NCBI GenBank assembly: GCA_900169235.1
Contig: FWCC01000141.1
Location: 214,807-278,806, forward strand
Source of the DNA: Zarea fungicola
Taxonomy: Eukaryota; Ascomycota; Sordariomycetes; Hypocreales; Cordycipitaceae
Length of the DNA: 64,000 nt
Direction of reading: 5' to 3'
Shown: piece after piece, positions 29,616 through 45,135 of the stretch
Layout: each line of letters begins with the position of its first letter
Position numbering within the stretch: the first letter of the stretch is position 1
Notes under the pieces: model-generated
Database searches by the model: none
Told to the model about the DNA's origin: nothing
The model's input: only the letters and a program-made list of their open reading frames with translations
Made by a program: the position numbers and the translations under genes

Positions 29616-30265
29616 CGTGGATATGGATATGTGAATGGTAAGTTCGTCTATGGACCAAAAGTTGGAGGTTCAGCACTGTCTTATTTAGCGATATGGGTGG
29701 ATTAGCTACATCATTACAAGGGCAACCCTTAATGGCTTATCACGCCTAGGCCGGCAATCCGAATACATTTGTCAGTCGACACTCGTGAAAGCCCTTGGAG
29801 CCACTGGCCGGAAGGTCGGGATCGGGATCGGGATCGGGGAGGAGTGCTAACATGCTTTAATTGTAGATCGCTGATGGCAGGCGGACTAGTCCGCAGCGGC
29901 GGCCCACTGCCTTGGTCGCATTAATCCTCTTTGGACCGAGTAAAGTTCTGAGCGACGCCGGTTGGATCACACTTGCTTCTAATCTACGGAGAACAGGTCA
30001 TGGAAACTATTACTATCAACTTCTTGCCTATTATCGCTAGATGGTAGATTCATTCTGATTATAAAGCACCAATAGAGTGAAGTTGTATCTAATGCACGCA
30101 TTAGTAATTCATGACGAGTTTTTTTGTCCGTGTGACGTACACACTTACGTTATTTGGATTTTCGATAAATTGTCAAACTACTCATATAAAATGGTAGAAT
30201 TTGCATTTCACAAGCTGCTGTAGACCGCCACAAACGCAAATCATTTTCATTTCATCCATTACCAC
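29616..30265. other. intergenic region with a short GGGATC tandem repeat
   Basis: A divergent spacer. At 29816-29839 the hexamer GGGATC is repeated about four times. No gene was seen. Confidence 0.45.
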
Positions 30266-31283
30266 AATGACCGATCTTGTTCTTGTAAGCCCGAGCGGCT
30301 GTCCGAACGCAGTCTGATTTCGACAAAATTTCCTCGTCAAAGGAAATTTCAGCATTTTCCTCTCAGCTCGAGTGTGTTGTGGTTCCAGACATCACTATCC
30401 ACGGGGCATACGATGAGTCTGTGAGAGGGACGAAATATATTATCCACGTCGCTTCTCCACTGCCTGGAAAGGTCCAAAATGAAGCAGATTATGCGACTGC
30501 ATTGATTCAACCAGCAATTCAGGCCACAGTTGGTATGATGCATTCTGCCATGAAGGAATAAAGCGTCCAAAGCTTGTCATCACCGCCTCTGTGCCCTCAT
30601 TTGCGTCTGTGGCCGCTCTTGCCAGCGGCATCAAGGTTGACGGTGAGCCATGGTTCAGAATCCGGTTACTCTTGCTGCATACTAAAGACAAGGTAGAACA
30701 AACCAGAGCGGCAAACACAGAAGGCCCATTCAAAAGCAGCTTCCTCACATACGAGGCCTCAAAAGCCCTCGCGTTTCAGGCTTCGGAGAAATTCATCGCA
30801 GACCAAAAGCCGCCGTTTGATCAACATCCATCCTGCGGTTTTTTAGGCCGTGATAATACCGTGAATGAGGTCCAAGGTCTCATGAAAGGGACAAATCGCC
30901 TTATCGTCGGTCCTCTGCTCGGACACAGCAATCCCCAACCCGCCCTAGGAATTACAGTGCATGTCAATGACGTGCCAAGGCTACATGTTTTGGCTCTGAA
31001 TCCTGAGATTAAGGGCCATCAGAGCTTCATTGCTGTAGGACCGGATTACGGCAGGGTGAACCGGGCAGACTCCATTGATATTATCACAAGACGGTACCCT
31101 AAGCCATATGCTGCCGGCGCCTTTCAATTTGATGCATGTACTCCCACCAAAACTGTGCCCGTAAAGGTGGACAGTTCCAAAGCCACTAAGACATTTGGCA
31201 TTCAATTTGAAACATTTGAGGAACAGGTCGTCTCCATAGTGGATCAATTTCTGGAGCTTGCAAAGAAATCTGCTGCAACTTGA
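30266..31283 (+). pseudogene. decayed NAD(P)-dependent SDR/epimerase-type reductase
   Basis: A broken extended short-chain dehydrogenase of the ketoreductase/dihydroflavonol-reductase type. The ATG at 30266 opens correctly, but the Rossmann glycine motif is lost and a TGA follows within 20 codons. Homology resumes near 30366 with VPDITIHGAYDES and IIHVASPLPG. A frameshift near 30555 then interrupts the strand before LVITASVPSFASV. The downstream part still has the active-site Y-E-A-S-K (YxxxK) and an open C-terminus to 31283. The missing cofactor site, frameshift and stops argue that no active enzyme is made. Confidence 0.75.
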
Positions 31284-32103
31284 AAAAGATAACAATGTTC
31301 AGCATGGAACGGGGCGATCAATCAGCTATCCTTTTACAATTAAATAACTAGCTCCTCGCTCCTAATGGCGTCTGTCCCACAAATAGTTCAACAATTAACC
31401 AACAAGGGAGGTAGCCCGCACGACGGTGGTGGGTGGTTGTTCTGTTCGACACCTATTATGACAGGTGATTAGTGGAATAACTGCAACAAATCATATTGCC
31501 ATATTTAGTGACCATTCTGTGGAGGGGTACCCTTTTGAGCACCACTCGAAGGACCTTGCGGGTATCAGCGCTGACGCGTCCTGTCTAGAGTGCAGCAGAA
31601 CACAAGCAGGTCGAGGCACACTGTATTCACTGATATCTGACCGTCTTCGTCCGAACCTGACTGCGTTCCATTCTTCGCCTTCCAGTTCGTACGGAACTGT
31701 ACAGAGTACAAAGAACACACTTGCTATTGCCAGAGGAAACTTGAAGAAACAACTACGGTGGGGCTGCCCGGCACTTACACACCAGTGTGGATCAAGGCGC
31801 CGTCTTAGGTATTCTGCCTGGAAGGGCTGACTGGCCAACGAGATTGGCCAACCGGTTAAAAGAGTTGATTGGAAGTAGACCCTGGTCTGGGAGGAGCTGG
31901 TCATTAGGGAGCCCATGGGTATAGGTGCAAGAAAAGAGTTTCTACAACAAGTTATGTATAGACTAACAAATGCTAATAGTCTATAGCCTATGTTGCATGC
32001 AAGACATTTCGCACGGAGCATAGAAGCGTATGAGAGGAATGCAGTGAGAGTAAATTCATCGCTATCTAACTCCTAATATAGCTAAGCGTGTGATCACTAG
32101 GGA
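31284..32103. other. intergenic region, no supported gene
   Basis: Only long chance-like open frames on opposite strands (for example 31491-32021 on minus), without domains, signal peptides or splice support. Confidence 0.4.
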
Positions 32104-32842
32104 TCAAAGCTTTACTTGATGAGATTTAGGAAAGCCTGCAGGCTGCGGAGGGTTGCGACGTAGGAGCTCGTCGATGTTGAACTCTTCTGTGGGCTTGGGT
32201 TAATTCCGACCAAGGGTTGAGAGGGGGTGGTCTGGAGCGTGCGAAATAAAGCTGGTGGAAGGCTTGGCCGATGATTTGAATGCATGTGTGCTCTCCAGCT
32301 CTTCCCGTGTTTCTTGCTCTTGTAGCAGAGCGGCGTGTAAGTCCTGCTGAAACTTTTCAAGTGTAGCCTTAGAATCTCTGTAAGCCTGCGATGATCCGCA
32401 ATGGGAACATATTCGGCCCTGGGGGTATGCGATGAGGTCAGTTTCCTTAGGCTTGTTAGATGGTGTGTTGAGAAACTGGGCGCCAGTTGGATTTTCCGTT
32501 CCGTAAAGTAGGGCGAGAGGGGTTAGGGCAGTCCAATCTTAGCAGAGAGAGTCGAAAGACAACACGCCTTGATGATAAAGCAATAGGTGCATTTGAGATT
32601 TGAGGGGTAGTACAGAACCGGCCTCTACAGCTGAGGGAAGCTGAACTTATCAAGTTTGGCTGTCTGTGTATTCGTGTATTAGGATGTACCTGGAGGAGGA
32701 GGTGGCAAGATGTGATGAGAACCGCCCTATGACTTGCATAATTGAAACGCAGGCGAACGGACCGCGAGTGAAGAAGGGCCATGGCTTCGGTCGCGTTTTC
32801 GGCTTCATTCGGGTCTTTTAAGTAAGCGTCCCATATCTTCAA
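32104..32842 (-). pseudogene. decayed gene of unrecognised family
   Basis: The minus strand has an ATG-initiated segment from 32842 of about 50 codons, rich in Ala/Glu/Arg (NEAENATEAMALLHSRS). A second, longer frame then runs from about 32660 to a TGA at 32104-32106. That frame encodes a CxxC-containing segment (ICSHCGSSQ), an amphipathic acidic helix (LEKFQQDLHAALLQEQETRE) and an acidic C-terminus (EEFNIDELLRRN). It is interrupted by in-frame TAA codons at 32539-32541 and 32200-32202. No intron choice removes them cleanly. It therefore looks like a decayed gene; an undetected exon structure is the alternative. Confidence 0.35.
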
Positions 32843-34096
32843 CCCAATGGCCTTTTAATTTTCTTCTCATCATCGGGGGCCACCCAAAGCTGGTTGGGTG
32901 CATGAAGCCAAAGCGATTGATTTACCGTGCAATGGCACCTCTAATCGTTCTATGAGTAGTGAATTTGCAACTAGTGACCTGCTGCACCAGTCCTACGCCG
33001 ATTGCTCTATCGACTTTGACCGGATCATATCTAACGCAATGGCCCTATAATATGTAGCCACAACTGAACTAGTAATTAGATTAACTGTTTTATTAAGCTA
33101 AGTAACACCGGCCCATCATGACCATGTTCTCATCCGCATTGGTATACCTAAATCAGTTAGCTGGTGGAGGTCAGTGGAGTTCCGGGCGGCCCGACTACAC
33201 GGCACATACACCACATGTAGGCACAAGAATTTGTTCGTCGAGCGGTTAGCGGGATCCTAGTCACTCTTACGAGATGATGCCTCTGTTGGGAAGCGGTTCC
33301 CCTCGTCGTGGCCCTGCCGCGAACGGCCGAGGATCTACGAAACGAACCCCGAAACGATGTTGACGCGGCACGTAATGGATACCGAATCAACCAATTAAAG
33401 CCTAGAGGACTAAGGTATACGCTACCAAAAGACTAAGATGCTTACTATTCTGTCAGAACTGTCACCTTGGCCTTAAAAATAACCTTCTTTTTGAAGTCAA
33501 ATTTAAGCCAACTCAGTATCTCCAACAACGTAAAAACAATCACCACTGTATCAATTTAACACGAAAAAGGCAGAAGAGCAATCGGTTCACCCGCCTAAAC
33601 ACCACTTTATGACGCTACTGAAATAAACTCTCCGCACCGCCACCACTCAAGCCAAGTATCGTCGCCAAGAATTCCCATAGTATTCAATTTCATGCCCCTG
33701 CATGATACCTATCGGCCGGGCGTAGCAGTGTACGCCACTCATACTACTTAATTGAGGATCGAAACAAATGCCGCCCACTAACTAATTATCCGGAGCGGTT
33801 CTAGAAGCGTCCTGGACCTATTTGTCAGACAATCACCGCTAACAGACATCATCAAACCGATACTCTTGGCTGTGAGAACATCTGCCGCGTTACATGGTCT
33901 GACCAGCTAGGCAGTGGACCAGTGGATGGCGAGCTGAATATGCAATAATCAAAGACTTTTCAAAGCGTACTGTTAAACTATAAAGTATATCAAATGCGCC
34001 GTTTCACTGTAAGAGCACTTAAAAAGCACAGCAGCACTTACAATTACATTTTCAAATTATACACACTCGTCTTTTACTTAATCCTCTACCATCAGC
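32843..34096. other. intergenic region with promoter of the secreted pro-protein
   Basis: About 1.25 kb with no supported gene. A TATAAA element at 33979-33984 lies about 115 bp upstream of the next ATG. A short tRNA-Glu-like D-arm sequence (TCGTCGAGCGGTTAG) at about 33236 has no matching remainder of a tRNA. Confidence 0.4.
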
Positions 34097-35222
34097 ATGA
34101 AGTGGCTCTCTCTCGCCGTAGTGCTGCTTGCTCGGCTCGGAACTGCGGCTCCAGCAGCATCAAGCGTCTATGTCCGCTTTGAGCTGATTAGGGAGTCTTC
34201 TGAAATATCGTTGACTATTGTCGACGCAGCTACCAAGAAAGCGCTTGGCAGGTCCTGCTCCGCCAAGCTTGACAGCGGAAAGTTCGCAAACTGGCCTGTT
34301 TCCATCAACCTGGATACCAGCGGACAAGGCAACATCACCTTGGGCACCAATACCCAGCCGATGGAATACAATCTGGAGCCAGCTGCTAGCGTATCCTGTG
34401 ATAGCATCTCTGATGAGAAGGCAGTTTTCATTTCTTGTAAGGTTTCTGTGCCAGCAGGCGTAGATCTTACGCCTGCGGAGGATATTGAGACTAGTAAATG
34501 TCTCTCAGACGAACGTGCTTCTCTGGCCACGGTGGCGGATGCCATGGCCGCAGGAGGCAACGCCGACGGCCCCCCTATTCATGCTCCCACTGGCAAGGTC
34601 GACGGCGCTGTAAACTCTACAGACATTGATATCAATGGCAAGAGGCAGACCAACCCATGCTCGCAGTGGACGCCAGACGTGCGACGCATTGGCGACGGTG
34701 ACCCATGGCAGCACCACCTCTATACGCAATTGAGTGTATGTGAATCCCCCCGCAAAGGAAACCCCTACCCTTCTCGTCCTCATACCGGTCATTAAAAGCT
34801 TAAAACGAATAAATGTACTAACACGCTCTTAGGAACCCACCACCTGCGATGGCAGGAACCCCTGCTCAGCCACCTTCACCGAAAGCAGGGGCTGGTCCTT
34901 TGGCGCCAACATCAACGGCGCGGCGAAGTGGATCAGCGGCGGCTTCTCCGTGGCGTATAGCGTGACCTCGGGCAATTCCTACTCATGCAACGGCGGTGGA
35001 AGGGACACCGTCTGCGTTTGGTACGACCAGGCATTTACCGAATACAAGGTCGTCTCCGGCTCACGCAATGGGTGCGGGACGTTCTCGCCTAGCTTTAACA
35101 CTAAGATCTCATCGCCTAATCAGAATAACCGCGGCGGAAAGATGTACTGTGTTTCAGGTGGACACTGTCGTGGCAAGAGTGATAGATACTGGCAGCTCTA
35201 CACCCGCCGTGGCGGCCCCTAG
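34097..35222 (+). CDS. secreted pro-protein with Lys-Arg processing site, 342 residues
   Basis: Exons 34097-34735 and 34833-35222 join in phase 0. The intron begins GTATGT, contains a CTAAC branch site and ends TTAG. A signal peptide of about 18 residues ends at TAA-P. The first part (to about 190) has few cysteines. Then comes a GKRQ dibasic site near residue 190 where a Kex2-type protease could cut. The C-terminal part, about 150 residues, is rich in Gly, Ser, Asn and Tyr with regularly spaced cysteines (PCSATFTES, SCNGGG, VCVWYD, GCGTFS, YCVSGGHCRGK). The pro-region/mature-domain layout suggests a secreted disulfide-rich protein activated by cleavage. No family was recognised. Confidence 0.8.
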
Positions 35223-37417
35223 ATTTTTAGGCTCCCGTCGCAATGGTTCGGAGTGGTCTTTATTTCAGTTTGGGTCATATACTCTCCCATCTAGGGTTGT
35301 AGATGGCTAAAAAACTAAGGATTGATTAAACCGTTTCGCTTGCCCTTAGCCTTCAGTTACCATCATCAGCAGTGTCTACTGTTGTTACGACGTGGCAGTG
35401 GTTTATTTTTGTGGGAAACTTCCACTTTAACTTCTATTCTTATTTTATCTAAATATTCATAAATGATACATTTTTGCAACGCCGGCTCCGATTATTAGTC
35501 AGAGTTAAAGATGCCAACACATGCTAGACTACTGCTCGTCTCATATGCTATAGTACAAGATAGTTTCATGAGCAGAAGGGGATTATGATAGCAGCTTTAC
35601 ATGCAATAGGTATTATTTGATGAAAATGAGGAAATAATCTGGAAACCCAAAGTTTGGGGGCGGCACATGTAGGTGTTGATCACTGATACTGCTGTACTGG
35701 CTCACATCAGATCAAATATGGGGTTGAAAACTGATTTCTAGGCAAGTCTCTTGAACGTAGCAAAGCTTCTAGTATTTAATATGTAATTTTCGCTTCCTCG
35801 CGAGAGGAGGCGTACGAGGGAGAGGTCTGATTGACCAGAATCGCTGTATTACCCTACTTTTCAACACCACCACTTGTCACTGCTGGTCTACATCAAGAGG
35901 CTTACGCTGTACCTGCTATCACGTGCACACGCGCCGTTCCTGTATTTAGCCAGATTCCTACAGGCTCCCAATTGTAGATCTTTGAGCTACGTCTTGTAAA
36001 TAGAGCCTGCCCTGCCTGAACAGTGCCTATCCGTAGCAATAGATCTAACTCAACCTACCTGGATGCTCTCCGTCCTACCTGCCGTCCTCTGACCCTGACA
36101 CCACTTTTAGTAATAATTAACGCCTAGCCTAGCACATAATAAGAATTAATATTTATATAAATAGACCAAAACGAGGAATTCCTTACAAAAACCTTAATAA
36201 CCTATACCTAATACTAATTAGTACTATTAGGTATAAACTTAGTAAGGTAACTAAAAGAGATAAGAATTTTTCTTATTTTTTACTATAAGCTTATTATAGA
36301 AAAGTTTTCATACTAACTATTATACTAGGGTAGGAATACTACGTCTATTAACCTTAACCAAGTTAAGGTCATTATTAATGAGAACAGCTAGGTACCAGGT
36401 AGGCTAGTAACTATACTGCCAACACACATAACTTCTAAATTTGTGATTTTAGGTAGGAGGGGTCCTAGGATGACTTATATAAAGTGGATTGAGGCGTTAT
36501 TTCTTTTCTATATGAGTTGATACTTAGATCAGTGATGAGGCACTCCATTTTGAACACTTGTTTTATATTTTCCTTGTTGCTTAGACGACCGTGATTTGAC
36601 ACATGCCTTGCTGGTCTACCTATGCTCCGCGCTATTTCTCGATACCTATTGCCTTGTGCACACATTGGCAGCACAATGCCGATCATTCTGTAGTTCTTTG
36701 CTTTGGCAAGACGAACCAGAGGCGCGTCGGCAAACAAAAGATCAGCCAAAAAAATGATCGCCAAACAAAAAGAGGCAATGTCTCTCGTGTTTCTGCTCAC
36801 ACAGAGCTGGTGGAAACGAGTCAACAACTTCATAACCAACTGCTCGGTTTTAGTGGCGATTATTTGCATCTTTTCCGAGAAATAATATAGAAGCATTAGG
36901 TGCACGTTTACACTAAAAGGTAAAAGTGCATTAATAGAATTTGGAGGTCCTTTACAGCAAAACTAAAAGAGCCTTTAACCTAAAATAAATAAATTTTAGT
37001 AAATAATATTTAATTGGCCAAGATGCAAGCAAGTATTTATCTTTATTTTATCATTGTGCGCGAAATCACATTCAGGTCTACTATCTCTTTAAATTCGTGA
37101 ACGCTACAAAGCTAAAAAGCGGTGTTTAAATGTAGATGGTTTATATCTGTGGTCGTATGTATTAGAAGTCGATCTAAATCACTTGATATCCGACACGGTG
37201 CGTGATATCGGGTTACATGGTATGTCGTAGTGCGACAACTCGTTTAGGGTTTGGAGTTTCCAATTTTATATCTAAATGCCATTGATACTCGCGATTGAAA
37301 CCCGCCAGCGATCGGCCGAGCTTAAACTCCAGTAGAGAACTCCATACAACGATCGAGGCTTCCCACACCGCGTGATCCTCCACCTCAGCCCTGCTAGTCG
37401 GACGCGAATCGTTCGAG
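35223..37417. other. AT-rich, gene-poor region (probable mutated mobile-element DNA)
   Basis: About 2.2 kb. At 36120-36420 it is very AT-rich with many TA and TAA steps, resembling DNA altered by repeat-induced point mutation. The open frames here (for example 36465-36905 on minus and overlapping plus frames) are AT-biased and show no domain. The right end contains the 3' region of the micro-exon gene. Confidence 0.45.
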
Positions 37418-38478
37418 TTACTGTAACAAGCCATCCATATCAACAATGTTATTCATAGCAGCTATGGCAGTCAAATACTTACACACTATAATTATTAGCT
37501 ACGTTAGCATACCACGGCGAGAGATTTGTTTCGACACAGGGCAAAGCACTTACCTCCTAGAGTCACAGGAATATATTAGCAATTTACAAGTTTGTCAAAC
37601 ATCTCCTATCAAGAAATAAATAGATAGATACTTACGCACTATAATAGTGAGTTGTGTTAGTACCCTTGAATCAATCGACTGCTAAAGGTTGCGGTCTATA
37701 CTTACAGTCTGCGGATATTGCATATGTAAATATTACGATTATATAGCTTTTATCGGTAATAAAAGGTCTAATACTTACGCACTATAAGTACTATTGTATT
37801 AGCGACATTTCTAGTCTAATAATATTGGCCTTAATAGGAAAAATACTTACACACTGTATAACATTATATTAGGTCGTCAAATACAGGTGAGAGTTGTCAT
37901 ATATAATGGGAGAGGTACGTACACCAAACTAGTTGGTTTGTTAGCGACCCAGTGCTTAATTAACGTCGCAGTATAATTGAAACTTACGCGAGGCTGAGCA
38001 GATGATTGATATTAGCATACCCAAAGTCATGGCCGGATAGACATATGGATAGCTTACATTCTAAAATGCCGAAATATATAAATGCATTGCCAGTGGGAGC
38101 CGCGTCGTAACAGATGGCAGAAAAACTTACACACTGTCAAAAAAAACCCATTCATGTATAAGCTTCTATATCCTATTAATCATAGTCAAGTACAACCTAC
38201 GTCCTGTTTGTTTCACTTAGCAGAGTATTCATACAGATGACAGGATTCTTACTCACACACTGTTGCAGTGGATATTAGCTAATCAAGCATCACGCCAATT
38301 CTTGCAATAAATTAAGTACAAACCATCTAATTAGCAACACAGTTAAAACCTCGTAAATAGCGAGCACAAATCAGTAACCAGTACTTACGCGAGCTTCTAG
38401 AGGATCAAACCACTTGTTCACCGGGCTGGCTGCAACCACAGCCACGAGAACGGTCATGATCATTATTTCAAACTTCAT
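37418..38478 (-). CDS. secreted Cys-rich peptide gene built from 3- and 6-nt micro-exons
   Basis: Exon 1 (38389-38478) encodes 30 residues: a hydrophobic signal peptide, then SPVNKWFDPLEAR. It ends in phase 0 at GTAAGT. Leftward, splice acceptors are followed at once by 3 or 6 nt and another donor: TGT 38257-38259 (Cys), GAC 38201-38203 (Asp), TGT 38131-38133 (Cys), AAT 38058-38060 (Asn), CCTCGC 37988-37993 (Pro-Arg), TTTGGT 37923-37928 (Phe-Gly), TGT 37851-37853 (Cys), TGC 37779-37781 (Cys), ACT 37706-37708 (Thr), TGC 37636-37638 (Cys), GAG 37554-37556 (Glu), TGT 37483-37485 (Cys), then TAA at 37418-37420. An optional ATG at 38324-38326 has a weak donor. Introns are 53-79 nt, most with CTAAT/CTAAC-type branch sites and GTAAGT donors. 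The 44-45-residue product would carry six cysteines in its last 14 residues. The weakest exons are AAT and the optional ATG. The function is unknown. Confidence 0.72.
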
Positions 38479-38665
38479 TTTGGTCGTTGATAGAGGTTCT
38501 GTCGCTGTCAGGCGTATTGAAGTGATTAAATCAATGTTACATATCAATAGAGCCTCCAACAAGCGTCTTAAGTAGCTTATACAATAACCAATACCCCGCC
38601 TCAGCGCTGATCAAGGCACTACTACCTGCTATTTGCAGTTAGATAATTCGTGTATTTTTTGCATA

Positions 38666-38675
38666 TATTTATATA
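38666..38675 (-). promoter_or_regulatory. TATA element upstream of the micro-exon gene
   Basis: TATATAAATA on the minus strand, about 190 bp upstream of the ATG at 38478. The ATG context on the minus strand, ACCAAAATG, is a good fungal start context and supports this start. Confidence 0.5.
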
Positions 38676-40216
38676 CGAGCTACCGGAAACCTCAAGCTGA
38701 CCCGGCTACAACGGCACTCGTCTCAAACTTCGGGCTGACTTGGGCACGAAGGCTCTCTAAACGTATGCAGGCCTTCTCGGATCTCCACTACTAGTAGGAA
38801 ATAGATTGTCAATGTTATCAAAGCTGAAATGCGGGGGTTCTCTGGATGCTGGTATGGCGCTAGCGTGACCTGCCATAGGTGGCTATTGCTCGAATGGTCA
38901 GACACATAGTCCCATTCTAGTAGCTCGTACGGGAGAATGAAACATCTAGGTGTCATCTCCTTGTATAAACCACACAAGTCTCCATATTTGCATCGCGAAA
39001 CATTTCGGGAACTCGGCCAGCAGTTCACCTTTTGAAATTGTACCAATCTCGGCCCGAGCCAAACCATAAACGTAGTCTGTGCCTTACATCCATAACTTCT
39101 GCAGACGTTCCAATGACAACCGATTGTGTAGCGTCACTAAAGTCCAGAAGTATTTATATAACACAACATACAATGTCTTGCCCGCTTTCTGTAATTGTGT
39201 AATAAGAAATTGATGCGCACCTCTGGGTAGACCAGTCTATGTTTAGTCAGTCTTAGTCGTCGAGCGGTCAAAATTACCCGACCCAGTCGTCAGGTGAACC
39301 TGCTCTCGCTTGGATACATAAATCGATCGATATGCTAGTGGGGGAGCTAGATAAATCAAAACAGCGAGCAAAGACATAGGTTTACGCCGACCAATTACGT
39401 TCTTCTGTTCTGCCTCAGCTCGCTTGGGCATTCGACGGGGTCTCAGTGGCGGGCAACCCCGGAGCGGCAGCCCGATCATCGGGCTGTGGGCCTAGCACCT
39501 ACCCGGCAATAGTAGCAAGCCACAAGTTTCAATACAAAAATGAGTGATAGTGGTTTATTTATACAGCCCTTTACTTAACCCTTTTACAGCATATCTTATG
39601 CATTATTTATATAAGTAAAAGGATAGGATAACTAATCAGAGAAGGCCATGGTTTCCTAAGAGCCCTAGTCTTAACTGTTACCACTCTGGCGCTTGTCAGC
39701 TTTCGGAAAGGACGGTTATGCCGGCCACGACTGCACTCACGGGTCGGTCGACTTTACGCCGATTGATACTGTTGCGTTGCATTACATGCCTACATTGGGT
39801 CTCTCGTAAGTATTAAAACTGAAACTTAGAGTCGAAGGGGATCCTTCGCTTTCACGTGGCCACAGGTTCCATATAATCGCTGCATCGACCACATGAAAGG
39901 AGATGCTGACAGGCTGGACACATTCGATCCTTGCAATTCAACCTAGGATGTCGCAAATGTGCATCGTCGAACCGAAACTGGTGCTTCGTATAGATTCCAT
40001 GTCTTTTAGTTATAGAATCTTACATTTATTATAAATAGCTTCGCCATTTCTTCTTGACAGACAATACTTGTCTATAAAGTCCCTCCAATCCTCCCAGACA
40101 AGGAACCTCTCTAGCAATAAAAGCAACATTATTTCAAGAATATTCTCGAAGCAAACCTTGTAAGTTTACCTCTGCGGCATGTTATGTAAGACCATGCTGA
40201 CTCCTGTCGCAGCATC
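38676..40216. other. intergenic region
   Basis: About 1.5 kb. A minus-strand open frame at 38723-39067 lacks recognisable features. A TATAAAG element near 40074 probably serves the next gene. Nothing else is supported. Confidence 0.4.
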
Positions 40217-40474
40217 ATGCAATTCTCTCTCGTCAACATGGCCACTACCCTCCTTTGGCTCTCTGCTACAGTTGAGGCGTCCAAGTGCTTTTGTAATGGA
40301 GGCACTGCCATCTCGAAGCAGGCTTGTGATAGAATTGGAAAGGACTACGGTTGTTTTGGGTGTGGCTATGCCGGATGCTGCGTTTTTCCAGGCCCCGATC
40401 ATGATGCATTCGTCAATGCGTGCAATGACTTGGGTACCGGCTTCCAAGGATGCGGCGAATGTGCCGAGTGTTGA
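40217..40474 (+). CDS. small secreted protein with eleven cysteines
   Basis: Single exon, 85 residues. A signal peptide of about 21 residues ends near VEA-SK. The remaining 64 residues include 11 cysteines (CFC, CFGC, GCC and a C-terminal CGECAEC). This dense framework, with an odd number of Cys, suggests a compact disulfide-stabilised fold, possibly with one free thiol or dimer. The ATG is about 140 bp downstream of a TATAAAG element. No known family was recognised. Confidence 0.75.
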   Translation: MQFSLVNMATTLLWLSATVEASKCFCNGGTAISKQACDRIGKDYGCFGCGYAGCCVFPGPDHDAFVNACNDLGTGFQGCGECAEC

Positions 40475-41498
40475 GATATCGGCAACCTGCAATGCAGATT
40501 TTATATTATACTTATTAAAGATAAGTCCTTTTACACTTAACTAAATAGGTCTTATAGTAAGTTTTAATTAATTTCTCTTCTTTAATGCTAAGGATATAGT
40601 ACTGTCGCTGCCTCTAATGGCAGCGCAGCAAATGCGGCTTTCTGATTAGTTAGAATGGGGAGTAGCCCTACATAATCTAGGCACCCTCTCTATAAGGAAG
40701 TGATCATCGCTATGATCACTTAGATAGCTTCAGACATCAACAATCAATACAGCATTGAGCAAATGACCTAGGTTCACCATTCCTAAAGGAATCCAACAAG
40801 TACTTACTTATAATAATGGCTTAATCGATGTAAGCCGTAGTTAGGGTATGCTCTAAAGCAAGTTATTAGATTATATTAAATAGTATACTTATAAGTATTA
40901 TTAAGAGATTAACTGTTAATAGAAGAACTATTTATTAGATTAATTATTTTATAAGGTATTTATATAAAAATCTTTTATATATATAATTATCAACACCTAT
41001 ATAACCCAGAATGTGGAAGTTCCAGGGTCCACAAGGTAAGCTCAGAGTACCAAGTCAGCCACTTATGGGAGATGAGGAAAATGCAGAGACCCCACTCTAG
41101 TTTGTAGAGTCATCTCAAATCGAAGCCTATTTAAGCAGGTGCAGCCGACGGAACCTTTTACGGGAAGTGGAGAGGATTTAGACGGTGCTTTACCGTAGTC
41201 TCTAGCAATCTGGCCCAAGCTCTTGAGCCTTTGCCGACGTCAGATAGAGATAATTGTATTACAGAATTACAAACCCCGCTCGAAATTCAGCCGCCCAACC
41301 AACCGGGACATGGCCTGGTTGTCTTCATTCGCATGCAGTTGGCCTTCCTTATTTGAAATAGCACGCCTGATCCACTAAATCGTAGAATGACCACCGGCGC
41401 CACGTATAAAATCGGTCATTTCTTTTCTCTGCTCTGGGAATCTAGTCCTCTGCATCGCTTGTTGCCCCTCTCGTTAATATCAAACAAACCAGTCAATT
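40475..41498. other. AT-rich intergenic region with a dispersed repeat
   Basis: About 1 kb. The part at 40480-41000 is AT-rich and includes repeat copy B at 40816-40932. The right end is the promoter of the HRI1-like gene. No gene was seen. Confidence 0.45.
40816..40932 (-). repeat. degraded dispersed repeat, copy B
   Basis: Inverted-orientation partner of 23766-23868. It is embedded in a longer AT-rich tract that may be the rest of the element. Shared blocks are listed at copy A. Confidence 0.5.
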
Positions 41499-42254
41499 AT
41501 GGGCACGCAAGCCATGGAAGTGCCATCGCAAGTCGTCCAACGCCTGAGCATTCGTTGGCTTCCTGACGAGCCGTTTGAAGATACTGCTACCGTTGCCCTC
41601 AACGTTGGGGGCTATTTTATCGACTTGCGTGTGACGATTGCAGATCAATCAATCCAATGGAGTCAAGCGGGAGAAAGAATTATATTGAAACAAGATCCTT
41701 GTAAGTCTGCCACCCAGTCGTATCGGAATAGTGATTCGTGGTCACGTACGTCGTGCTGACCTCTCTTCTCAGTCACTGTCCGTTGGACACACATCATAGA
41801 CTCCCTAGGCCTTACCGAGCCTGACGAGGCTCAAATCAAAAAGCTCCCGAATGGAGATGAACTCGAGAGCGGCGTCACGCCAGCGCCGCATAAGGACAAC
41901 ATCCCGACCGCCTTTGAAGAGGTGTGGAGAGATGTCACTACCAAGAAAACCCAATCTGAGCTGTCATGGATTCTTCAGAGCACTGATGGGAATACTTTTA
42001 TTGGAAAGGTTGGCAACATCTACGTCACAAATCGGAAGAGTGTTACAGGCTTTGCGGCACGGAGGGAGGATCGAGTTGATGCTACGGGTAATGATACGTG
42101 GAAGATTACCTTCCAGTCTGAGAATGGCACAGCGCTTCCAAGTGCGACACAGGCTGTTGCCGCCATTGACTCGCCAGGGCAGAGCTGGACCAATGGCCAA
42201 AATGTAGATATTGCTGGTGTGAACTATATATTCAGGGCAGTTAGCTCGAGTTGA
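41499..42254 (+). CDS. HRI1-family protein
   Basis: Exons 41499-41700 and 41773-42254 join in phase 1 to 227 residues, across an intron starting GTAAGT and ending CTCAG. The sequence matches the general shape of fungal HRI1 proteins: an N-terminal SIRWLPDEP and TVALNVGGYFIDLRV, a central TVRWTHIIDS, then EEVWRDV and a C-terminal beta-rich half ending IAGVNYIFRAV. HRI1 is a two-barrel, lipocalin-like protein first found as a casein-kinase-I (Hrr25) partner in yeast. Copies occur as accessory genes in filamentous fungi and their role there is unclear. Confidence 0.75.
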
Positions 42255-42967
42255 TTTTTTGTCGCTCTCATTTAATAAAAAACTACGCTGTTGAAGAGAG
42301 TGGTAACGTCTGGTAGCCATCCTAATCCGAGTCCAGCTGTGTTTCCCAGTAAGGGTACCCGCCAAAAATTTAACACAAGCTAGAGTTTCTAATCCGATGA
42401 AGATGGTCCCTGACCAAATTTTGGTATTGGACATTGCATAAACCGCGGGCAGGCGGATTTCCTTAGATACTGTAAAGGCTGGGGGTCACGCATCTGATCG
42501 GGACTCCCCATTTCAGAAATCAATGGGCAGCTTTTGGTTCGCTCGCCTTTACTTGGACTGCTCGGCGGTTGTGGGAGCGACTTTACAACATGTGACGTAG
42601 GGCACGCATTAAACTAACGTGTCGTGAAGACAATTGCGGCTCCAATGGCTCCATGATAAGTAGCGACATCCGAAAAGGCTGCAACCTTTTCGAGTGGTTT
42701 GATCAACAACCAAGTGAGAGTCGTTATGAGATTTGACCGAGGGGGTTGTCACCACACCGATTCAGACATCGTCGTTGAGGGTGAAATTGGGCCGAGCCGT
42801 TGCGATATATCTTTGACGTGAGTGGTCCCACGAGGAAATGTATCTGCTTCGAACAGTAGAACATCTACTGACCCCTCTGGTATTTGCGTGAAAGGCTGAG
42901 TCAATTTGCAAGAAAGTCTGCGTTCCCAGCGAGGAACTGAGATATCCTTACTCCTGTTTCGAAGCCG
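42255..42967. other. convergent spacer
   Basis: About 700 bp between the HRI1-like gene (+) and the Zn2Cys6 gene (-). No gene or repeat is supported. Confidence 0.4.
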
Positions 42968-44401
42968 TCATGGGCCGATGCAGAATTCTGGCGTCTCATC
43001 AACAATCTCAAACCACGACCATGGATGCTTCTTGTCGCATGACAGCCAAACAGTATCCATAAACTCAATCATGCTCCTGCAAGAAGTAGGGGCCAATCCA
43101 TTTGTGATTTCTTCCATATGTTCAGCAACCTGCAACCGCGACGACTCAGAAGTAAGTAAGGGTGCCAACTCCAGACAGCTGATGAAGTAAGGGAACAGCA
43201 GATACCGGGGTCCACGGGGGCCTCGTTGCATTTCGTTGACTATACTCTGCCTCAGTTTGATTGCTGTCTGGCGTCTCACTGCGCTGCCGTTATCGGGCTG
43301 CAATGATTGTATCAATAACAAGGCCATCAACCGAAATATGTTTCCTTGGGAGATGAGGTGCTGTTTTTCAAATTCTTCCATAGGTTGCATGTGTACCATG
43401 CGGCGGGAAGCCTCCTGTACGGGCATCCAAGCCTTGATAGAAGTTGCCAGTTGCTGAGCTTGCTCAATCGACTCTTCGCGGGACAACAAGGCGAGTTTCT
43501 GTCGATTCGCCAATTCGCATACATCGTAGAGATATGGTAGAAGCCCATCACAAACTCCATAGTGTCTATCTATGCGATGATCCTGAACAGGTGGCGTGTA
43601 GCGAAAGACTGGGACCTCGCGTCGCATCAAACACTCATAGATTTCAGCAAATAGTAGGCTGGTAATGTTGGCGTCGGATTCAATGGCGGCAGCTCCGACG
43701 AGGTCGCTTTGCCACGCATATGCGGCCAATAGCGCAGAGCGGGAGATTGGCAGAGATTGATGGCCAAGGTTGATATCATTATACCACAAAAGTAAAAGAG
43801 CTAGGGTCAAGGCTGTTTGTACACCGAACAGAGTTCTCGGCTGTAGCGTGCGCAATGTTTCCAGAGCGTGACTGGCCCTAGTCATGTGTGTCGTGGTGTT
43901 ACCAGCAGTGACGATGGCATTGTGACCAGAGCCTAGCATGAGAACCTCGGCCAACGCCAGAGCTGCGTCTTTCAAACGAACCGGGTCCTTGAATAGCTGC
44001 TCGAAGACAGCGGACCTTGCCACGCCAAAGAACGCGCGACCGTACACATAACGGCTCATCTGGTCCGAATGTAGCAAGAATTCAAGCAATTGTACCTCGA
44101 GTGCTTGATCTGTGGCGTTGGGTGGCAGGATCCTTTGCAAGTCAGGCCCACCTACTTGAAGGTGGGACAAGCCATCTGACGACGACCTTATACCAGGGGC
44201 GCGGTAGTGAATTCTTGGTCGGCCATTTCGCTTGACTGGTCGCTTGCGCTCGCAATCATGGCCCAGTCTGTCGCAGCGCGAGCACCTCGTGCACTGCGCC
44301 TCATAAAAACAACGGGCTTTGATCGCGTAACATCGATCACATGTCTTTGTAGACTTGACATTTGTGCTGGACTCCTGCATCTTTGGGTACCGGCGATGCA
44401 T
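42968..44401 (-). CDS. Zn2Cys6 transcription factor, probable catabolic regulator
   Basis: Intronless, 477 residues. The N-terminal binuclear zinc cluster uses C21, C24, C31, C40, C43 and C50 (C-x2-C-x6-C-x8-C-x2-C-x6-C), with an extra cysteine at 37. It is followed by the basic segment KRPVKRNGRPR. The rest is helical with Leu-rich segments (ALTLALLLLWYND), as in fungal regulatory domains. It is divergent from the aldehyde dehydrogenase, and that gene, an alcohol dehydrogenase and a permease follow. By position it probably regulates them. Met8 is an alternative start. Confidence 0.87.
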   Translation of the reverse strand: MHRRYPKMQESSTNVKSTKTCDRCYAIKARCFYEAQCTRCSRCDRLGHDCERKRPVKRNGRPRIHYRAPGIRSSSDGLSHLQVGGPDLQRILPPNATDQALEVQLLEFLLHSDQMSRYVYGRAFFGVARSAVFEQLFKDPVRLKDAALALAEVLMLGSGHNAIVTAGNTTTHMTRASHALETLRTLQPRTLFGVQTALTLALLLLWYNDINLGHQSLPISRSALLAAYAWQSDLVGAAAIESDANITSLLFAEIYECLMRREVPVFRYTPPVQDHRIDRHYGVCDGLLPYLYDVCELANRQKLALLSREESIEQAQQLATSIKAWMPVQEASRRMVHMQPMEEFEKQHLISQGNIFRLMALLLIQSLQPDNGSAVRRQTAIKLRQSIVNEMQRGPRGPRYLLFPYFISCLELAPLLTSESSRLQVAEHMEEITNGLAPTSCRSMIEFMDTVWLSCDKKHPWSWFEIVDETPEFCIGP

Positions 44402-45135
44402 TTGGGCTAAGGTGAATCAGCTATGGTGGTGGAACAAATTGTAAGCAATCGTTGCGTGGATGTGAATTGGAAGCTGCCCAAAGCCCCCAACGCTAGTCAA
44501 GTCAATTACGCGGGCTCCTAAGGTAGGCAATAGGTTATCTGTATGTATCCCCGCAAGTGCTCAACCCAGATTAGCTTCATGTATGAATCCCCGCTCGCCC
44601 AATACACGCACGGGCCTGGTCATGCTAAACATTCACCTAACTGGGACGTGGCGCCTTGTTTCTGAGAAATGTACTGGCAATCGCAAACAATTTGAGTGGG
44701 GAATAACTGTTCCTTCATAGCCCCATGCTTCTAGCCGCCGTTGACGCCCGGCACATGAATATGGTTGCGGGCTTTGTCATATACCCCTCATTCTTAGTCT
44801 CCAACTTGAATGCCTCCGGCGGAAGGTTTTTTACCCCTCATGGACTTGCAAGCCTGGTTCCTGCGTTTGGGGTAAGTAAATATCGGGATAGACCCACCGC
44901 CAAGGCCACTGCAATTGGCTTCCAGAACTCACGTCTTAGCCTCAGAGTGATGATAGCGATGAGACAACAAACGCAGACCCTGCAAGAAACCCCACCATCC
45001 ATGTCTGCTATGTAGTTTTGAGCGTACTGCCAACCCTGGGCTAGACATATTGCGAACCTCCAGTAAGGGCGCTGCGCGGAGCCATGGTGAAGCAGGTATG
45101 ATTGAGATTTAAGAACATGAGTTATCCCGCTAGGC
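44402..45135. promoter_or_regulatory. divergent promoter of regulator and aldehyde dehydrogenase
   Basis: About 730 bp separating the Zn2Cys6 gene (-) from the aldehyde dehydrogenase (+). The arrangement favours a shared control region. No binding site could be assigned by eye. Confidence 0.45.

Follow-up and report, generated by a model that had tools for sequence, protein, structure and literature searches.

Can a secreted peptide be spelled almost amino acid by amino acid, through a series of exons that hold only one or two codons each? This question is raised by a locus on the minus strand of a 64,000-nt stretch of the Zarea fungicola genome (hereafter the window). Our answer is that the locus is very probably a gene for a small secreted Cys-rich peptide, in which, behind one ordinary signal-peptide exon, nearly every codon would stand alone between short introns. 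The original prediction had proposed such a secreted peptide built from one- and two-codon exons, and this reading is supported by the statistics of the exon chain, by further chains in the same genome, by the recovery of the same exons when their length was left free, and by a structured RNA element behind the predicted stop.

The gene model starts with a 90-nt exon 1 (38389..38478, minus strand, as for all features of this gene; MKFEIMIMTVLVAVVAASPVNKWFDPLEAR), which by eye and by a simple hydrophobicity rule would encode a signal peptide and a short pro-region. Exon 1 is followed by 13 micro-exons in phase 0, including 11 exons of 3 nt and two exons of 6 nt. In the order of reading, the model places ATG (Met) at 38324..38326, TGT (Cys) at 38257..38259, where a 7-nt reading is possible via a rival donor, GAC (Asp) at 38201..38203, TGT (Cys) at 38131..38133, AAT (Asn) at 38058..38060, CCTCGC (Pro-Arg) at 37988..37993, TTTGGT (Phe-Gly) at 37923..37928, TGT (Cys) at 37851..37853, TGC (Cys) at 37779..37781, ACT (Thr) at 37706..37708, TGC (Cys) at 37636..37638, GAG (Glu) at 37554..37556, and TGT (Cys) at 37483..37485. 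The stop codon TAA (37418..37420) adjoins the last acceptor and forms the start of the predicted terminal exon. The predicted precursor (MKFEIMIMTVLVAVVAASPVNKWFDPLEARMCDCNPRFGCCTCEC) has 45 aa, with six Cys among its last 15 residues, and its micro-exon-encoded part is MCDCNPRFGCCTCEC.

The 14 modelled introns are 62, 64, 53, 67, 70, 64, 59, 69, 69, 70, 67, 79, 68, and 62 nt long. The donor is GTAAGT in 9 of the 14, and the acceptors comprise 7 TAG and 7 CAG. In addition, the branch motif CTAAY was found in 8/14 introns and YTRAY in 11/14, while three introns are without even the looser motif. The original prediction had described a 90-nt signal-peptide exon, at least ten exons of 3 or 6 nt, introns of 53-79 nt, CTAAT/CTAAC-like branch sites in most introns, micro-exons that are all in phase 0, six exons of a single Cys codon, and a TAA directly behind the last acceptor. 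All of these agree with the model, phase 0 holding for 13/13 micro-exons. The locus has a single match in the assembly, namely itself, and none of the 17 ORFs of at least 100 aa listed at 30000-45000 overlaps it. A frame with a Fungal_trans_2 domain lies at 42968-44401 of the window (minus strand).

To score such chains, we used dynamic programming over an acceptor, a whole-codon exon without stop, a donor, a branch motif, and an intron of 44-130 nt. With weights that were set by hand after reading the window locus, and with whole codons demanded by the score, the window chain reached 107.9, whereas 1000 dinucleotide shuffles of the 1.4-kb region had a mean of 11.0 (sd 3.8) and a maximum of 30.4. 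None of the shuffles came near, as had been expected from the claim that chance would not give such a chain. The scored chain has 14 exons, of which the first is false and lies upstream of the 13. Furthermore, the best chain in whole-window shuffles (n = 12, one strand each) scored 20.2, and the runner-up in the real window, over both strands, scored 16.0. Allowing any exon length from 1 to 15 nt kept 12 of 13 internal exons at 3 or 6 nt. The exception was TGTGTGA for TGT, with the rival donor lying 4 nt further on, and the end pieces of this chain (8 and 10 nt) are not among the 13. Elsewhere in the window, strong pseudo-exons of 1-15 nt that arise by chance are not biased towards 3 nt or its multiples (3 nt in 18/245, multiples of 3 in 80/245).

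Is the window gene alone? Four more chains, called C30, C335, C124, and C421, were found by pattern in the same 43-Mb genome. Patterns with a Cys codon between splice sites matched the window (C115), C30, and C421 (4 matches versus 0 in the control, and 13 versus 3), and C124 and C335 came in with a broader set of codons (15 versus 8). Later patterns matched C30 and C335 (7 versus 6) and C124 and C421 (6 versus 5). Another pattern matched C30, the window, C124, and C335 (12 versus 8), another matched the window only (1 versus 0), and one further pattern gave 1 match versus 5 in the control. Since the control counts were often comparable, single pattern matches mean little, and therefore the chain score decides. 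By this score, the pattern matches at C115:17051, C143, C168, C75, C344, C375, C142, C405, C38, C179, C209, and C442 were not chains; the best score among the rejected matches was 16.9 for the places checked, with C24, C57, and C349 outside the check.

The chain score was 218.8 for C30 (28 exons; shuffle maximum 27.4), 366.6 for C335 (46 exons; shuffle maximum 29.4), 55.2 for C124 (10 exons), and 43.8 for C421 (5 exons). None of 500 shuffles of each chain reached its score (shuffle maxima 25.8-29.4 over the four chains); the comparison concerns chains that had first been chosen by pattern, and it takes no account of their selection from the genome as a whole. With free exon length, 28/28 exons of C30 were multiples of 3 nt and 46/49 exons of C335 were exactly 3 nt; by their position in the list, the other three of C335 are two end pieces and the GC-donor exon. 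Meanwhile, the free-length runs of C124 and C421 were mixed, with 3-nt exons in 5/10 and 5/13, respectively. At least two further candidate genes in this genome clearly have the one-codon-exon design, and two more are shorter or unclear.

C30 includes exon 1 (MKSFYLVIAALASLAIAVPAADSLLG), then a DRAIAP exon, and then 28 small exons, 24 of which have one codon: LRQC QG G KAC P A G T R C C T N C G G D Y V C R R P G QA C I C. These are probably followed by P and a stop; exon 1, the DRAIAP exon, and the stop were placed by eye. The free-length run gave the first of the 28 exons as TGT alone. The Cys spacing resembles that of knottin-type peptides, a likeness that no database match supports. A solved relative was sought by a PDB sequence search with the peptide from LRQC on, and it was rejected, with four matches at E 1 to 7.7, not significant, the best of them to nemertide alpha-1. 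C124 (L060, about 39.1-39.8 kb, minus strand) has a short one-codon run with ATAAGT at one expected donor site, and it is possibly decaying. C421 (L007, about 12.3-12.6 kb, minus strand) has five one-codon exons (H, C, P, N, and L) and is without a clear exon 1; a signal-peptide-like frame lies upstream of the run, and its connection to the run is not clear-cut. In both C124 and C421 the runs are clear but short, and their ends are ambiguous.

The longest chain is found in the C335 gene (L057, 18399-21809, minus strand), which reads MKYFVAIVLLLIGACMAIPIPEVNAEEG, then 47 one-codon exons (IITDLPIGVLHGILKGIAIGVYTGFHDVLGDFATVLGNSLPFFPKRP), and then TAA. The exon AAG with its GC donor, the last intron, and the TAA were added by eye. 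Exon 1 has 28 residues, and the micro-exons make up 47 of the 75 codons. Exon 1 is signal-peptide-like in all three clear genes (window, C30, and C335), and TAA lies right after the last acceptor in the window gene and, by eye, in C335. The listed introns of C335 have a median length of 68 nt. Between the micro-exons, the introns have GTAAGT donors in 12/46, CTAAY in 29/46, and one GC donor, and the donors of C335 are weaker than those of the window gene (GTAAGT 12/46 versus 9/14).

C335 contains tandem units of 145 nt, each with two introns and two codons. In the three full units, all six exon columns were variable, in contrast to 19 of 139 intron columns (Fisher P = 1.5e-5), and without the splice-site and branch columns 17/107 intron columns were variable (P = 4e-5), in a test of three related paralogous units and six exon columns of one gene that treats columns as independent. 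This test excludes a fourth unit, the first at the 5′ end, whose first intron is longer and has diverged more. In a second intron pair, the introns are 92 percent alike and the codons differ (AAG versus AGA). This pattern suggests that units were duplicated in tandem and that their codons then changed fast. Codon change with like introns would fit selection on the peptide and not decay, and a mutational cause is also possible. Meanwhile, the introns of the window gene and C30 gave three weak pairs only in BLAST (best E 0.013), that is to say almost no similarity, so the duplication route is visible only in C335. With the same three weak pairs, we rejected the idea that the introns are copies of one mobile intron, and true local intron duplicates are present in C335. 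A repeat or mobile element at the locus was also rejected, with one assembly match each for the window and C335. The sequence design, its recurrence, and the C335 duplication can be read directly from the DNA.

A single database relative was found. P0001 (59 aa) shares 27 of 28 identical residues with exon 1 of C335. Beyond exon 1, it looks like a read-through of intron 1, and its translation, a conceptual one that was read without DNA, is compatible with a kept branch site and the first micro-exon. Homologue searches with the window and C30 peptides gave no match. In Pfam, the window and C30 peptides had no family at E up to 5, with filters that drop most weak matches, and the C335 peptide had none at E up to 0.01.

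A structured RNA element was found in the predicted 3′ UTR of the window gene (37301..37360, minus strand, limits by eye), 57 nt past the stop. Its basal stem pairs CGATCG at 37355-37350 with CGATCG at 37314-37309. The region after the stop has six further matches in the genome, and an 18-mer search with up to 2 mismatches gave 21 genome matches versus 0 in the control. We kept 17 copies, the window's included, namely those with the 5′ half; L044, L045, L047, and L048, in which the 5′ half (TATGGAGTTCTC) is absent, were dropped before alignment. One copy lies behind the C30 gene, and several lie behind secreted-looking genes. The stem-loop model is paired in 85.5 percent of cells over the 17 copies. 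Eight of its 17 pairs change on both sides, which was equalled by 9/500 shuffles, the covariation score was equalled by 0/500, and the number of further pair types by 61/500, in a comparison where relatedness alone can exceed shuffles and where the structure was drawn from one of the aligned sequences, a bias in its favour. Slid controls were far lower (0.075-0.122 versus 0.261).

In addition, a signal-peptide-like frame ends 20-400 nt upstream of 6/17 elements, compared with 163/4000 random window positions (binomial P = 3.8e-5), by an automatic rule that was fixed after the loci had been inspected. The same rule on the other side of the elements gave 2/17. It gives nothing at the other 11 elements, including the two at micro-exon genes, which are undetectable by such a rule. 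By eye, some more of the 17 loci look secreted, and others are without a clear gene. L042 and L040 have secreted-looking and apparently related proteins near the element, and the L042 frame has no Pfam match. A known RNA family was rejected, with no Rfam match at E 5 or better for 36500-39500, and among the literature matches listed (titles and abstract starts) nothing relevant was found on a 3′ UTR motif in fungal effector genes. The RNA element supports the window gene model, because a shared 3′ feature sits right behind the predicted stop.

To our mind, the above results could be explained in other ways. First, the gene could be real and its micro-exons mostly skipped, so that exon 1 would be spliced to a late exon in the main mRNA and the micro-exons would be used in varying subsets. 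Small exons are readily skipped, and since the internal ones hold whole codons in phase 0, their loss would not disturb the frame. Furthermore, schistosome micro-exon genes are said to vary their proteins by alternative splicing (PMC5825161). However, mostly skipped exons would be expected to decay, and yet the window run is unbroken, as is the C335 run with one GC donor allowed, an argument that is partly circular, for the chains were found by their intact sites. The last window acceptor also leads straight into TAA, so the skipped form would have almost no mature peptide. We consider general skipping unlikely.

Second, the chain could be a decaying or neutral intron array, the remains of a once ordinary gene that took up many introns and lost its expression. 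Burst-wise intron gain is known in fungi, and C124 and C421 look partly decayed. However, the reading frame stays open up to a stop in the window gene, C30, and C335, the window and C30 introns are not copies of one element in the BLAST comparison given above, and in C335 it is the codons that change and the introns that stay alike. This origin is thus very improbable. Finally, the idea that splice-like signals lined up by chance in AT-rich DNA hardly deserves belief: GTAAGT and CTAAY are short and the GC content is 0.38 at 36001-38000, but no shuffle came near the window score, and other chains of this design, with as many as 47 exons, occur in the genome.

We therefore return to the reading in which the micro-exons spell the peptide. 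From the sequence, we infer that these genes are transcribed and spliced and that their products are secreted. Two splicing complexes cannot occupy both sides of a 3-nt exon at once. The introns would be recognised singly, by intron definition, and would be taken out in sequence, because splicing complexes cannot flank such an exon simultaneously. Each AG-codon-GT site would then behave as a ratchet point of recursive splicing whose payload is a single codon (rarely two to four). Removal of an intron would join the payload to the growing exon and leave the next donor directly behind it. Exons of 3 nt are difficult for a spliceosome, and many could be skipped in practice. As any of these whole-codon exons in phase 0 could be lost without a shift of frame, splicing might also produce peptide variants. 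Such genes may grow by tandem duplication of intron-plus-codon units, whose codons then diverge faster than the introns. Fungal Cys-rich secreted peptides often act on other organisms.

The wider picture would be that the spliceosome climbs a ladder of up to 47 one-codon exons, adding one amino acid per ratchet point, that the cassettes can be duplicated, swapped, or skipped in frame, that intron-codon duplication serves as a machine for rapid peptide change, and that a structured 3′ RNA element is common to some of these genes and to other genes for secreted proteins. We give this picture about an even chance. If the splicing is confirmed, such genes would test the least exon that a spliceosome can handle in series, as well as the order and fidelity of splicing over some 48 introns. 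They would also make visible how such genes may grow, by duplicating intron-codon units in tandem and changing the codons fast. Since standard programs for gene finding and RNA alignment are expected to overlook such genes, more of them may be hidden.

How do these genes compare with known systems? In recursive splicing, ratchet points are zero-length exons, and splicing recreates a donor at the junction. The proposed scheme shares the recreated donor, whereas here one or a few codons would be added at each site. Isolated microexons of 1 to 3 nt are described for mouse Ncam (PMC8042270), and isolated tiny plant microexons for APC11 and VPS55, the VPS55 donor being a conserved GTRAGT (PMC8831610). 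In addition, lipS of Dactylellina haptotyla is reported to have two 3-nt exons (PMC5639578). These are one or two tiny exons in ordinary genes, whereas the runs here would supply most of the mature peptide. Xlr2 of Trichoderma virens has a microexon, and its authors state that functional ones had not been described before in filamentous fungi (PMC11121469). This is one regulated microexon in a transcription factor, unlike the serial micro-exons here. A fungal gene class with runs of one-codon exons was not among the matches listed in the open-licence literature.

The closest comparisons, made by described features, are two classes of animal genes. Aphid bicycle genes are putative effector genes whose internal exons are small, numerous, and nearly all in phase 2 (PMC9168663). 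They share with the fungal genes the many small internal exons of one phase, but the phase here is 0 (window, C30, and C335), and the exons mostly have one codon. In schistosome MEGs, about 80% of the coding region consists of short symmetric exons, 6-36 bp in size, and they encode secreted or exposed proteins for which alternative splicing was proposed as a source of protein variation (PMC5825161). Here too the short exons are symmetric. The products of that class are secreted or membrane-anchored, and in the fungal genes exon 1 looks signal-peptide-like by eye and by the hydrophobicity rule. The micro-exons, however, cover 15/45 codons in the window gene, about 35/68 in C30, and 47/75 in C335 (33-63%), and 11/13, 24/28, and 47/47 of them, respectively, have 3 nt. 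By this analysis, the one-codon-exon genes would work like schistosome MEGs and aphid bicycle genes, yet they depart from defining features of these classes, namely from exon size and share of the coding region in the former and from phase in the latter. If confirmed, they would give fungi an equivalent of the micro-exon effector genes known in schistosomes and aphids.
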